Shown: positions 1,418 to 4,530 of the stretch, piece by piece
Position numbering within the stretch: position 1 is the stretch's first letter
Layout: each line of letters starts with the position of its first letter
The notes under the pieces: generated by a model
Databases searched by the model: none
What the model was told of the DNA's origin: nothing
The model's input: only the letters and a program-made list of their open reading frames with translations
Origin: a bacterium
Lineage (GTDB): Bacteria > Oederibacteriota > CAKKQC01
Direction: 5' to 3'
NCBI GenBank assembly: GCA_919901855.1
Contig: CAKKQC010000018.1
Location: 12,358-61,994 of the forward strand
Length of the DNA stretch: 49,637 nucleotides
Made by a program: the position numbers and the translations under genes

Positions 1418-1579
1418 ATGGTGGTCATGAACGCCGCGAAAGCCTGGCAGAACCGTCTCGCCCAGTGGAACGCGTTCGAACGCTGGCATCGCGACGACGA
1501 CCCGGCGAATCGCGTCATGGGGGTATGCACTTCACTCACCGACCCCCCACAACATCACCCCATGGGCGCGCGCACCTGA
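1418..1579 (+). CDS. Possible small protein or gene remnant, 53 aa
   Basis: This lies in the otherwise empty interval 1361-1618 downstream of the tRNA. From ATG at 1418 (or 1427) the frame reads AKAWQNRLAQWNAFERWHRD, an amphipathic Trp-rich segment that looks like the start of a real protein. It then degenerates into low-information sequence before the TGA at 1577. The second half is compositionally unlike the first, so it may be the 5' remnant of a decayed gene rather than an intact one. No family is recognised. No clear ribosome binding site is seen, and nothing else is seen in this interval. Confidence 0.25.
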   Translation: MVVMNAAKAWQNRLAQWNAFERWHRDDDPANRVMGVCTSLTDPPQHHPMGART

Positions 1580-1618
1580 ACGATTCAGCGTGGCGGAATG
1601 AACGCCCGGAAGTTCCGG

Positions 1619-2041
1619 TCAGTAGCTGAGCGAGAACGTCTTGGCCGGGTAGTCGACGGTCAGCACGAAGTTGGACAGGAAGCTCTTCACCCCCAAGAGC
1701 GGGATCCTGAGACGGGGATTGAAGTCGATGATGGCGTCAGCCACAGTAAACCCGTCGAAAGAGATCGAAGCTGAGTGGCTATAGACCGTGGTCGGACCCG
1801 CCCCCGTCAAGACCGTCTTCGGCTTGCCCTTGTCGATCGTGTGCCCCAGCTGCGCGGCCAGTTCAACCGGGAAGGAGCACTCATCGGCACCCGTGTCGAT
1901 CAGGGCCAGGGCATCAACGGTCTTCCCCGGAGTCGGACTGGACGCCCTGATGAGGAGGTAGGGCCGGGGCATTTCTCCGGCCCCAAGCACCAGAAAGGGG
2001 TAGGTCTTAGTCGGCACGGAGCGGGAAGAGCAGGACGGCAT
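1619..2041 (-). CDS. Retropepsin-like aspartic protease, clan AA
   Basis: A small single-domain protein of up to 140 residues. The catalytic motif is ALIDTGADECSFP, with hydrophobic-hydrophobic-DTGA as in retropepsin-like proteases that act as homodimers. A glycine-rich flap-like region (TVLTGAGPTTVYSHSASI) follows, and the C-terminal IPLLGVKSFLSNFVLTVDYP matches the conserved ending of bacterial members. It has no signal peptide, so it is probably cytoplasmic. The start is uncertain: ATG at 2041 has GGAGAAGG just before it and overlaps the upstream gene by 35 bases, while GTG at 2017 would overlap by 11. It follows the DUF5678 gene and is surely co-transcribed with it. The protease fold is well supported; the substrate is unknown. 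Confidence 0.85.
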   Translation of the reverse strand: MPSCSSRSVPTKTYPFLVLGAGEMPRPYLLIRASSPTPGKTVDALALIDTGADECSFPVELAAQLGHTIDKGKPKTVLTGAGPTTVYSHSASISFDGFTVADAIIDFNPRLRIPLLGVKSFLSNFVLTVDYPAKTFSLSY

Positions 2042-2219
2042 CCTTCTCCGGGACGAAGACCAGGATGGGGTTCACCGTGCCGCGGCTCTTGGCTTCGTCC
2101 AGCACCACGCCGGGGTCCTTCCCGCTGGCGACGACCTTCCGGTCCTCCATGCTGGCGATGGCGATGTACTGGCCGCCGTACTTCTCGGCATCGCTCGCGT
2201 TGAGCAACACGTTCTCCAT
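2007..2219 (-). CDS. DUF5678-type small protein, 70 aa
   Basis: The 70-residue protein reads KYGGQYIAIASMEDRKVVAS, then a Gly-Lys-Asp turn, a helix (VVLDEAKSRG), and the strand PILVFVPEKDAVLLF. This is the pattern of the DUF5678 family: keep it wide, carry a value, give a period, and end in a hydrophobic strand. Its biochemical role is unknown. Genes of this type are often found next to retropepsin-like protease genes, and here the reading frames overlap, so the two products may act together, perhaps as partner or substrate. The ATG at 2219 is preceded by a -10-like hexamer at 6 bases and no Shine-Dalgarno sequence. Confidence 0.75.
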   Translation of the reverse strand: MENVLLNASDAEKYGGQYIAIASMEDRKVVASGKDPGVVLDEAKSRGTVNPILVFVPEKDAVLLFPLRAD

Positions 2220-2225
2220 GCCTCT

Positions 2226-2231
2226 ATCCTA
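2226..2231 (-). promoter_or_regulatory. Candidate -10 element of the DUF5678/protease operon
   Basis: TAGGAT on the minus strand, six bases before the ATG at 2219. The long palindrome at 2258-2315 lies a short distance upstream. Confidence 0.5.
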
Positions 2232-2257
2232 GCACCCGTCGTGAAAGGGAAAGTCCG

Positions 2258-2315
2258 GGGACGGTCTTTGGATCATTGGATTCTCCCGGGAATCCAATGA
2301 TCCAAAGACCGTCCC
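2258..2315. repeat. Perfect 26-bp inverted repeat with 6-base loop (REP-like palindrome)
   Basis: The arms at 2258-2283 and 2290-2315 are exact reverse complements (GGGACGGTCTTTGGATC at the outer end) around the loop TCCCGG. The local base composition is much less G+C-rich than the flanking genes. It sits between the stop of the interrupted membrane-protein gene (2389) and the promoter of the DUF5678 operon. Its length and perfection exceed a typical terminator, and there is no T tract. It most resembles the dispersed palindromes that accompany REP-associated tyrosine transposases, but no transposase is in this window. Confidence 0.85.
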
Positions 2316-2340
2316 TGTGCCCCTTGTCCCTGTGCCCCTT
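2311..2340. repeat. Two tandem 15-bp direct repeats beside the palindrome
   Basis: GTCCCTGTGCCCCTT occurs twice head to tail (2311-2325 and 2326-2340). The first copy begins inside the right arm of the palindrome, so the two repeats form one composite element. Confidence 0.85.
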
Positions 2341-2388
2341 TCTATCTCAGGATGAAGTAAAACCGGTAATCGCCCTCCCTGCTTCGGC

Positions 2389-3246
2389 CTATCTCCCGGG
2401 CTGACTCACTCCTCCATCAGTCGATCCCGACATCCAGACGGGCCTCGGGCCCGGATCCAGGCGCGGACCGCACGGCGGGAGATCGCTCAGCCACCACGCG
2501 AGCGCCACTCCCGCACCAACCACCATCCCGACAATCGAGCCGACGACCTCCCCCTCGGTCGTCATCCGACCGGTCTTCAAGCTTCCACCGCCCGCCAGAT
2601 ATCCCAAGACCGATCCAGCGGCGAAGGACAGGATCGGCAAGCGCTGGTGGTACCACAGCCGCTTCGATTCGCACGCCCGCCATTCCCGATCAGCAGCCTT
2701 CCAGTCCCCCCACCATTTCCTGTCCAGATCCGTCCACGCAATGTCCCCGCATCGAGGAGCCGTGACCGTCCCGATCAGCCAACCGAGGCCAACGGCCGTC
2801 AGCTCGGCACCCACCATCGTGAACAGAGGCGACACCTTGTCCTCTCGGAGCCCCCTCGGCAGGACTTTCGGCCGGGCAAGAACGAGAATCATCAGAGGCA
2901 GGCCCGCCCACCCGCCATTGATGACCCAAGTTTCCCTGTGCTGGGCACGAACGAACTCACAGACCGCTCTCGACGGGACAGGAGCCTTCGGCACTTCCAC
3001 TGGATATGGCTGGGCAATGATCGAGATGGCCTTGGTCAGTTGCGCAGGCTCCTACGCTTCGTTGGAGTAGGTTCCCCCCGGGTGCTCGAACCCTGTGTCG
3101 ACATCCGAACGGGTCCTCGGAGCCGCAGTGGACGTCGCGGTCCATACCGGGGCAGCAAACGCGGACCGCGCCGCCGGTGCGCCGCCAGCGAGCGCGAGGC
3201 GGGGCAGCAACGCAAGGCCCATGGCTACTGCCAGCCCAGGGTTCAT
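2389..3246 (-). pseudogene. Exported or membrane protein gene interrupted by an in-frame TAG
   Basis: ATG at 3246 opens a frame with a signal peptide (MNPGLAVAMGLALLPRLALA) that runs 64 codons to a TAG at 3054-3052. The same frame then continues without another stop for 220 codons to 2389. It reads EPAQLTKAISIIAQPYPVEV and on into a protein with about four hydrophobic segments (WAGLPLMILVLA, FTMVGAELTAVGLGWLIG, LPILSFAAGSVLGYLAGGG, GSIVGMVVGAGVALAWWL). Promoter-like sequence and signal peptide belong to the upstream part; the membrane part has only a GTG at 3000 and no promoter or Shine-Dalgarno sequence. The simplest reading is one gene of about 285 codons with a nonsense mutation, a sequencing error or readthrough. 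The family is not recognised. Confidence 0.6.
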
Positions 3247-3252
3247 ACGGCT

Positions 3253-3258
3253 AGTCTA
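3253..3258 (-). promoter_or_regulatory. Candidate -10 element for the start at 3246
   Basis: TAGACT on the minus strand, six bases before the ATG at 3246. It supports 3246 rather than 3000 as the true gene start. Confidence 0.45.
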
Positions 3259-3284
3259 CCCTCCCCCCCGGCCACGAGGGAGGT

Positions 3285-3303
3285 ACGGGGGCATGTCCCC
3301 CGT
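3285..3303 (-). terminator. Hairpin downstream of the secreted beta-rich protein gene
   Basis: ACGGGGG (3285-3291) pairs perfectly with CCCCCGT (3297-3303) around a 5-base loop, about 50 bases after the stop of the gene at 3355-4530. There is no T tract, so it may be a weak or Rho-assisted terminator. Confidence 0.35.
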
Positions 3304-3354
3304 CTTGTCGTGGGGCCTATCAGGAACGCCCCGGCCGCTCCGACGCGCCGCCGG

Positions 3355-4530
3355 CTACAGCTCGAACCCGATCGCGAACCGGAAGGTGGTCTCGTTGGCG
3401 ATGGGCAGCGTGACGATGTCCTCGTAGTAGTTGCGACCCCCGCCCATTCCGATGTGCATGCCGGCCGATCCCACGGGGATGGCCATCGCATCCACGAAGA
3501 CCCCCCAGCCCCAGGGGTCTCCGAACTCGGGCCGGTTGAAGCAGGAGCCGTGCACCTCGATCCGGAGGTGGAAGCCGCCGGCGGCCCCCCCGGCTCCGGC
3601 GACGCGGTCACGTCGCGAGCCGTCCCCGAACAGGGTCAGCTCCGCCTTGAGCAGGGCGTGGTCGAAGCCGGTCCCGAGGCCCCGCTCGTACCGGCCGGTC
3701 GCTTCCGTCGAGAGGGAGACGGGCGCCGCCCAGGCGCGGACGCGCGTCGCCTGCACGCCGACCTGGTAGTTCCTGAACTGGGGGATGGCCGCGAACTCGG
3801 GACCCGCGGATTCCCAGATCGAGGCCCGGACCACCTGCATATGGCCCTTGAGCTGACTCACGCCCCCGCGGTCGAACAGGAAGCCCGTGGTCAGCCCCGC
3901 CACGGGGATGGTGCCGTGGATGAAGCCCTGCGTGGAGTCCATCTCCGTGGTCTTGCGGCCCGAGGCGTTCCCGTACCGCACGCCCGCGCCGTCCGTACTC
4001 CCCGACCCGGTCTCGGTGCTCGAGAACACTCGCCGGCCGCCGACGAGGCGGGTCACCGGACGCATCCGCACGAAAAGGCCGAGCGAGCCGCTCCAACCCG
4101 CGCTCCGGTCGAAGATCGAGCCGTACGCGAGCACGGTACGGTAACCCCAGCCGTCCTCCATGGGGCTCCCCTTCGGCGTCAGGTTCGTGGAGTAGAAGTC
4201 GACGCCGACGCGAACCCCGGCCTCGTCCCGCCACTTCCATGGCACGCCCCCCAGGCACACCTGGCCTCCCGCAACATGCGCCTCCGTGTCGACCCCGTCG
4301 ACCGAAATGGTGTAGGCGGGGCCCACCACCGCCCCGCCCTCGAAAAACACGACGGGCTGGCGTTCCCGGTACACCTGCTGGTACTCGAAGAACGTGTCGA
4401 ACACGTTCGGGGAACGCAGGGCGAGGGCTTTCAGCTCCTCGACGGAGAGGGTCCGCGCGGCCCCGGCCGCGGACGCGACCGCGACCACGCATGTCATCCA
4501 CGCGACCCATCCGGCGGCGCACCGCATCAC
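3355..4530 (-). CDS. Secreted, probably outer-membrane, beta-rich protein of unknown function
   Basis: The 391-residue product has a signal peptide (CAAGWVAWMTCVVAVASAAG). It next has a short helical segment (LSVEELKALALRSPNVFDTF) and a long body of alternating hydrophobic strands and Gly/Asn/Ser turns. The last residues are TTFRFAIGFEL; a final aromatic-rich strand ending in a hydrophobic residue is typical of outer-membrane barrels recognised by BamA. The likely start is GTG at 4530, because a TATTAT box ends 7 bases before it; the ATG at 4527 is the alternative. The gene stands alone, with a hairpin downstream. I do not recognise the family, and a periplasmic carbohydrate-binding or lectin-like role would be a guess. 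Confidence 0.75.
   Translation of the reverse strand: MMRCAAGWVAWMTCVVAVASAAGAARTLSVEELKALALRSPNVFDTFFEYQQVYRERQPVVFFEGGAVVGPAYTISVDGVDTEAHVAGGQVCLGGVPWKWRDEAGVRVGVDFYSTNLTPKGSPMEDGWGYRTVLAYGSIFDRSAGWSGSLGLFVRMRPVTRLVGGRRVFSSTETGSGSTDGAGVRYGNASGRKTTEMDSTQGFIHGTIPVAGLTTGFLFDRGGVSQLKGHMQVVRASIWESAGPEFAAIPQFRNYQVGVQATRVRAWAAPVSLSTEATGRYERGLGTGFDHALLKAELTLFGDGSRRDRVAGAGGAAGGFHLRIEVHGSCFNRPEFGDPWGWGVFVDAMAIPVGSAGMHIGMGGGRNYYEDIVTLPIANETTFRFAIGFEL

Follow-up and report, generated by a model that had tools for sequence, protein, structure and literature searches.

A palindrome fused to tandem 15-mers as a probable gene-less TIRYT end pair, and two regularities of TIRYT ends

The palindrome and the tandem repeat fused to it

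The window, the whole 49,637-nucleotide stretch of DNA analysed here (C18:12358-61994), belongs to a genome of 4.68 Mb in 91 contigs that is 93.46% complete. It contains a perfect inverted repeat whose arms (2258-2283 and 2290-2315) are 26 nt long, 100% complementary and separated by a 6-nt loop. On one side the palindrome adjoins two overlapping minus-strand genes, one encoding a DUF5678 protein (2007-2219) and the other an aspartyl-protease-like protein (1619-2041), and on the other side lies a minus-strand ORF without a Pfam match (2389-3000). Folding of positions 2251-2345 as single-stranded DNA gave -33.4 kcal/mol, compared with a mean of -9.8 for shuffled sequences (z -11.6), and none of 200 shuffles equalled it. 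An Rfam scan of the window returned a tRNA at 1289-1360 as its sole match, leaving the palindrome unmatched.

The 15-mer GTCCCTGTGCCCCTT stands twice in exact tandem at 2311-2325 and 2326-2340; the last five bases of the right arm double as the first five of the 15-mer, such that the tandem and the palindrome overlap. A sequence-only reading of this DNA had described a 26-bp perfect palindrome with tandem 15-mers, and both are exact, at 2258-2315 and 2311-2340. Read inward on the minus strand, the order is AAGGGGCACA-GGGAC, again AAGGGGCACA-GGGAC, and then the remaining arm. The features are as follows.

2257-2262, plus strand: GGGGAC box of the left arm, the putative cutting box, recognised in the sequence and also present at the TIRs of Y1 genes
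2258-2283, plus strand: left arm of the palindrome, from the inverted-repeat search and the fold
2267-2282, plus strand: doubled word TTTGGATC/ATTGGATT of the left arm, with 10/14 matches at lag 8, from the sequence
2284-2289, no strand: loop of 6 nt, from the inverted-repeat search
2290-2315, minus strand: right arm of the palindrome, from the inverted-repeat search
2291-2306, minus strand: doubled word of the right arm, from the sequence
2311-2315, minus strand: box of the right arm, GGGAC when read inward and preceded by A (AGGGAC), from the sequence
2311-2340, minus strand: two exact 15-nt copies, AAGGGGCACA+GGGAC when read inward, that is, flank plus box, from the tandem search

The 15-mer was rejected as a dispersed repeat, as it has fewer matches in the genome at up to two mismatches (22) than a reversed-pattern control (49), and its only exact occurrences are the two copies in the window. 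Where the sequence-only reading had counted the 15-mers as part of a mobile repeat, they proved instead to be a local duplication of flank and box. This duplication ends at distance 0 from the box edge and has no junction microhomology.

Copies of the word and arms at Y1 transposase genes

A BLAST search of the genome with 95 bases yielded 24 matches, which were collapsed by coordinates because a palindrome matches both strands. The palindrome's word was thereby located at 12 places: the window on C18; C6:268260; C12:148028 and 146809; C10:214183 and 135044; C21:11563, 12920 and 13040; C38:144689; C89:10232; and C28:176723. Inspection of the 12 contexts by eye showed compact palindromes with two arms at five places (C18, C6, the two on C12 and C10:214183), arms standing roughly 66-75 nt apart at two (C21:11563 and C38) and a single recognisable arm at the other five. 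At C21:11563-13097 (L013, L014), two copies of the window's arm are each followed by the same insert of ~70 nt, an arrangement that is either MITE-like or a duplicated unit.

The window's core word was absent from 191 other genomes at up to one mismatch (0/191). An exact scan of genome contigs amounting to 257 billion bases gave 15 stretches with the core, against a chance expectation estimated at about 7-8 for the two strands, and none of these 15 has the box or a second arm; occurrence of the same word in other organisms thus found no support in these genomes and contigs.

Y1 transposase genes occur in the same genome, three being found with PF01797 and four with the alignment A1 and with NF047646, the latter only below its cut-off. 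The gene L026 has GGGGACGTATTTAAGTATTTAAGTTG on both flanks, L027 has AGGGACACTCTTGCGATCTTGCGATT on both flanks, and L170 has GGGGACGTAGTTGCATAGTTGCAT on both flanks, with one mismatch on one side. At L025, GGGGACGTGCTTTAGATTTTAAGATT stands at one flank, and the other flank keeps no more than the box, GGGGACGCGCT. Arms of a common layout, in which a GGGGAC box is followed by a spacer of ~3-4 nt and then by a word of ~8 nt written twice, thus flank 4/4 of these genes, on both sides at L026, L027 and L170 and on one side at L025. A merged pattern built from the arms of the window, L025 and L027 had 78 matches in the genome at up to three mismatches (control, 0), and the patterns of the other two words had seven matches each (control, 0). 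Because these matches do not overlap in coordinates, the genome contains 92 arms of one layout, and copies that share this layout but differ in their words are spread through it. The copy count that had been called for thus came to 12 places for the window's word and 92 arms for the layout. A Y1 gene flanked by similar palindromes, also anticipated, was found four times with arms of the same layout, but 0/4 of these genes in the 91 contigs of this 93.46% complete assembly bear the window's exact word. The partner for this word may lie in the missing part of the genome or may have been lost, or one of the four enzymes may act across words.

Some arms elsewhere in the genome stand in an array-like order. 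All eight superfamily arms on C71:1-11003 (L120) are single arms on the minus strand, and all seven on C73 (L121/L122) are single arms on the plus strand (up to three mismatches in both cases), giving one orientation along the whole of each small contig, mostly with one arm per 0.1-6 kb. The surrounding genes on C71 are of the AAA_14/DUF4143 kind, with one HEPN gene, and those on C73 are caspase-domain, M48 peptidase and glycosyltransferase genes. Many short shared repeats also surround the arms. Integron cassettes were set aside for both contigs because the arms, judged by eye, are unlike attC sites.

Three of the Y1 proteins encoded in the genome were aligned, and these have the HUH motif (HVH/HYH) and the Y---NP motif (YIHLNP/YVHLNP). 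The proteins have a long C-terminal region, HTH-like in look, for which curated HTH profiles gave below-cut-off matches or none. Among ten proteins, one from this genome and nine from relatives, Bac_DnaA_C matched two above its cut-off (L174, L206) and three below it (L172, L195, L218). A search by sequence of solved structures returned no Y1 match, only nine weak matches that included a Cro protein at E 0.35.

Elements of this kind are already known. In the part of the article by Di Nocera et al. (2013, PMC3733652) that was available, TIRtrons, or TIRYTs, consist of RAYT-like Y1 genes between long inverted repeats that share GGGGWSAS, and some TIRs constitute moderately abundant dispersed families, with single, dimeric and clustered members. 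The present family resembles those described there in being dispersed and in having arms of the same layout at the flanks of Y1 genes in its own genome. It differs in that its word family is a new one, known from one genome, and in that the box of the window's left arm, GGGGACGG, is one base off GGGGWSAS (a fit at 7/8 positions); the copies on C6 and C38 read GGGGACAG and fit in full. Long Y1 proteins with HUH, Y---NP and a C-terminal HTH-like domain constitute TnpAY1 subclass 2.1, or RAYT group 1, and the accessible text of that study places 20/26 published TIRYTs in this subclass (Quentin et al., 2018, PMC6006769). A C-terminal HTH of the Bac_DnaA_C, HTH_23 or HTH_28 type is expected of its members. 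The proteins studied here share its HUH and Y---NP motifs. In the same portion of PMC6006769, subclass 2.1 genes are reported to have no REP-like sequences nearby, and what the C-terminal domain targets is left open; the ends described here, unlike those in that account, carry a box and a doubled word.

Doubled words and duplications at TIRYT ends

Related loci were sought with A1 at E <= 1e-20, and at least 129/384 genomes had a match among the matches listed. Set 1 combined 100 hand-picked stretches, one of them from the window's own genome, with three further loci of that genome, giving 103 loci with a gene. At 75/103 of these, the best inverted repeat of the flanks scored above the highest of 308 controls with mismatched flanks, and at the other 28/103 set-1 loci no inverted repeat above control (score > 18) was found. 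A box was recognised at 72 of these 75 loci, three being without one, and removal of 26/72 arms as redundant left 46 for the tests of the word. A further set comprised 40 loci, likewise hand-picked among the matches listed, of which 12 scored <=18 and three had no recognised box; of the remaining 25 arms, 10 were excluded for redundancy or for closeness to set 1, and 15 were kept. Because the further loci come partly from set-1 genomes, albeit from different places, they are a further rather than a fully independent sample. The box was located with a loose pattern, which misplaced it in at least four arms, by one base in L183, L195 and L218 and by more in L225. The TIRs are unusual at L226, where each end carries two arm-like copies in succession, and at L270 and L272, where each end forms a palindrome of its own around GGGGTCTGACCCC.

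In the families of the window's own genome the second word begins 8 nt after the first, with 8 to 11 matches out of 12 or 14 at lag 8 in seven typed arms and 6/13 in the eighth. Among the 12 arms nearest to these genes, lag 8 had a match rate of 0.56, compared with 0.28 expected (z 8.3; 0/1000 shuffles), and no other lag exceeded z 1.0. In 34 more distant arms, lags 7 and 8 were raised (z 4.8 and 3.0) and lag 5 slightly so (z 2.5). A permutation test was also used, in which second words were re-dealt among arms while their shared consensus was preserved. For the 12 nearest arms at lag 8, it was equalled in 0/2000 permutations; for the 34 distant arms the signal was weak, at best 6/2000 (lag 7) and 54/2000 at lag 8. 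A statistic over lags 7-9 gave 0/2000 for the 46 arms and 1/2000 for the 15 further arms. Doubling is thus clear in the nearest relatives and weaker elsewhere. The word differs from one family to the next, and its two copies tend to vary in concert, from which we infer that it is read twice. Covariation of word and protein across 97 loci was present for both parts of the protein (0/500 permutations each), and at these 97 loci its strength for the C-terminal part (partial r 0.15) did not exceed that for the Y1 part (0.20).

Duplications of the kind seen in the window were scored as tandem units of 9-40 nt with at most one mismatch that cover the box edge, low-complexity sequence being left out. 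In set 1 they were present at 11/141 arms (nine loci), compared with 5/1822 control placements at 13 other offsets, and all were exact, with units of 13-21 nt. The further loci had duplications at 7/49 arms, compared with 0/639 control placements; two of these had one mismatch, and units ranged from 12 to 28 nt. In the window's own genome the excess was small, 3/71 arms with enough context compared with 4/812 control placements, or 2/70 once the window, which had prompted the test, was left out. These three duplications are the window's 15-mer, a unit of 11 at a palindrome on C21 with the L025 word (L095), and a unit of 12 at a palindrome on C38 with a word of L026 type (L117). Fisher values for the excess of duplications (6e-10, 6e-9 and 0.014) are only approximate because each locus enters the controls repeatedly, at 12-13 offsets.

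Taking as the end of each duplication the furthest position that its register allows, a rough measure for L330 and L333, which have a mismatch, 16/21 stop 0-2 nt beyond the box's inner edge and the rest at 3, 7, 7, 8 and 19 nt. Microhomology at the junction was 0-2 nt in 16/19 measurable duplications, with exceptions at L192 (8 nt), L312 (5 nt) and L327 (5 nt), and the whole extra copy at L215 was counted as having no microhomology. A GTCA/CA join occurs at four duplications (L196, L203 downstream, and both sides of L215) and may reflect some preference as to where the second break falls.

Competing explanations and a candidate mechanism

The palindrome is likely a gene-less, that is, non-autonomous, TIR pair of a TIRYT, an HUH/Y1 relative of the REP-associated transposases, with cutting and mobility as proposed properties. 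The earlier suggestion of a mobile, REP-like repeat therefore stands in essence, given the copies and the Y1 genes with arms of the same layout; its type has to be amended to TIR with a GGGG[AT]C box rather than GTAG REP, and its movement is presumed. A foot motif helps TnpAREP to choose where it cuts the single-stranded DNA of a REP, according to the available part of PMC8266576. The elements of that account resemble the present one in being short palindromes served by a Y1 enzyme; they differ in their GTAG foot and shorter stems and, as far as that part of PMC8266576 goes, have no GGGG[AT]C box and no reported doubled word.

That the palindrome is itself a canonical GTAG REP or REPIN, served by a RAYT of groups 2-5, might be proposed from the presence of dispersed short palindromes and Y1 genes in one genome, and is extremely improbable, as no GTAG or GTGG is found by eye at either foot of the stem, the box and layout are of TIR type and the genes have a long C-terminal extension. 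REPs of the CGTC type, with an unpaired CGTC tag and a stem of 8-9 bp, were ruled out because CGTC at 2310-2313 lies inside the 26-bp stem. An intrinsic terminator or another RNA hairpin of the neighbouring genes, repeated by accident, would suit a palindrome that has minus-strand reading frames on either side, the ORF at 2389-3000 and the DUF5678 gene at 2007-2219, and that would form a hairpin in RNA. The stem is not followed by a run of T, however, and no terminator-like site was found at 1500-3500, in line with the sequence-only reading, which had preferred a mobile repeat to a terminator; no common gene context was noticed among the copies, the layout recurs in arms beside Y1 genes, and Rfam offers no match, all of which makes this explanation very improbable. 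There is equally little chance that the palindrome is a MITE derived from a classical DDE transposon bounded by terminal inverted repeats: the two copies with arms split by roughly 66-75 nt are MITE-like, but the genes found between such arms are Y1/HUH rather than DDE.

On the TIRYT reading, the end of an element would consist of a GGGG[AT]C box that marks the cutting site and a word of 7-9 nt written twice, the word being taken as the recognition part, one that differs between sister families. The enzyme would cut single-stranded DNA just inside the box, as proposed by analogy with TnpAREP, and the cut is placed at the inner edge of the box because 16/21 duplications end within 2 nt of it. 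For solo TIR pairs, movement or copying would depend on a TIRYT acting in trans. A freed box end would sometimes be joined to the sister strand ~11-21 nt upstream, generating a tandem unit, and the window's 15-mers would record a cut end rejoined out of register, with duplication of 10 nt of flank and the box. The combined proposal is that of a two-part code of box and doubled word, read by the C-terminal HTH region or by a protein dimer, together with duplications that are the footprint of homology-free rejoining and locate the cut at the box's inner edge. It is put forward tentatively, as possible rather than probable.

The main rival for the tandem duplications is slippage at the foot of the arm. 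The element would still be of TIRYT type, and the 15-mers and their counterparts would be scars of replication slippage, formed without cutting by a transposase when a polymerase, halted at the foot of the arm by a strong hairpin or a bound protein, copies 11-21 nt a second time. Tandem duplications beside palindromes are plausible products of slippage, the window's palindrome forms a very stable hairpin, and the box edge would serve as the stall point. However, junction microhomology of only 0-2 nt in 16/19 measurable duplications argues against slippage, as does the position of most duplications at TIRs that flank a gene of ~1 kb, where a hairpin between arms is unlikely. On balance slippage is considered rather unlikely as their origin.

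The doubled word and the duplication of flank and box are two regularities of TIRYT elements that apparently have not been reported. Neither is mentioned in the part of PMC3733652 that was available, 'direct repeat' and 'iteron' are absent from the texts of PMC3733652 and PMC6006769, and a literature search of article texts outside most subscription journals recognised no report of either. If the proposed code is correct, the doubled word and the box-edge duplications would predict the position of the cut and the bases that confer specificity, and because they do so, recognition by TIRYTs could be tested with short oligonucleotides. The tandem repeat fused to the window's palindrome would then be one case of a recurrent pattern. 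In the available portion of PMC6006769, subclass 2.1 is the second largest TnpAY1 subclass, present in 14.9% of strains; the predictions would thus concern a common Y1 enzyme, one whose recognition through the C-terminal domain was said there to call for further analysis.
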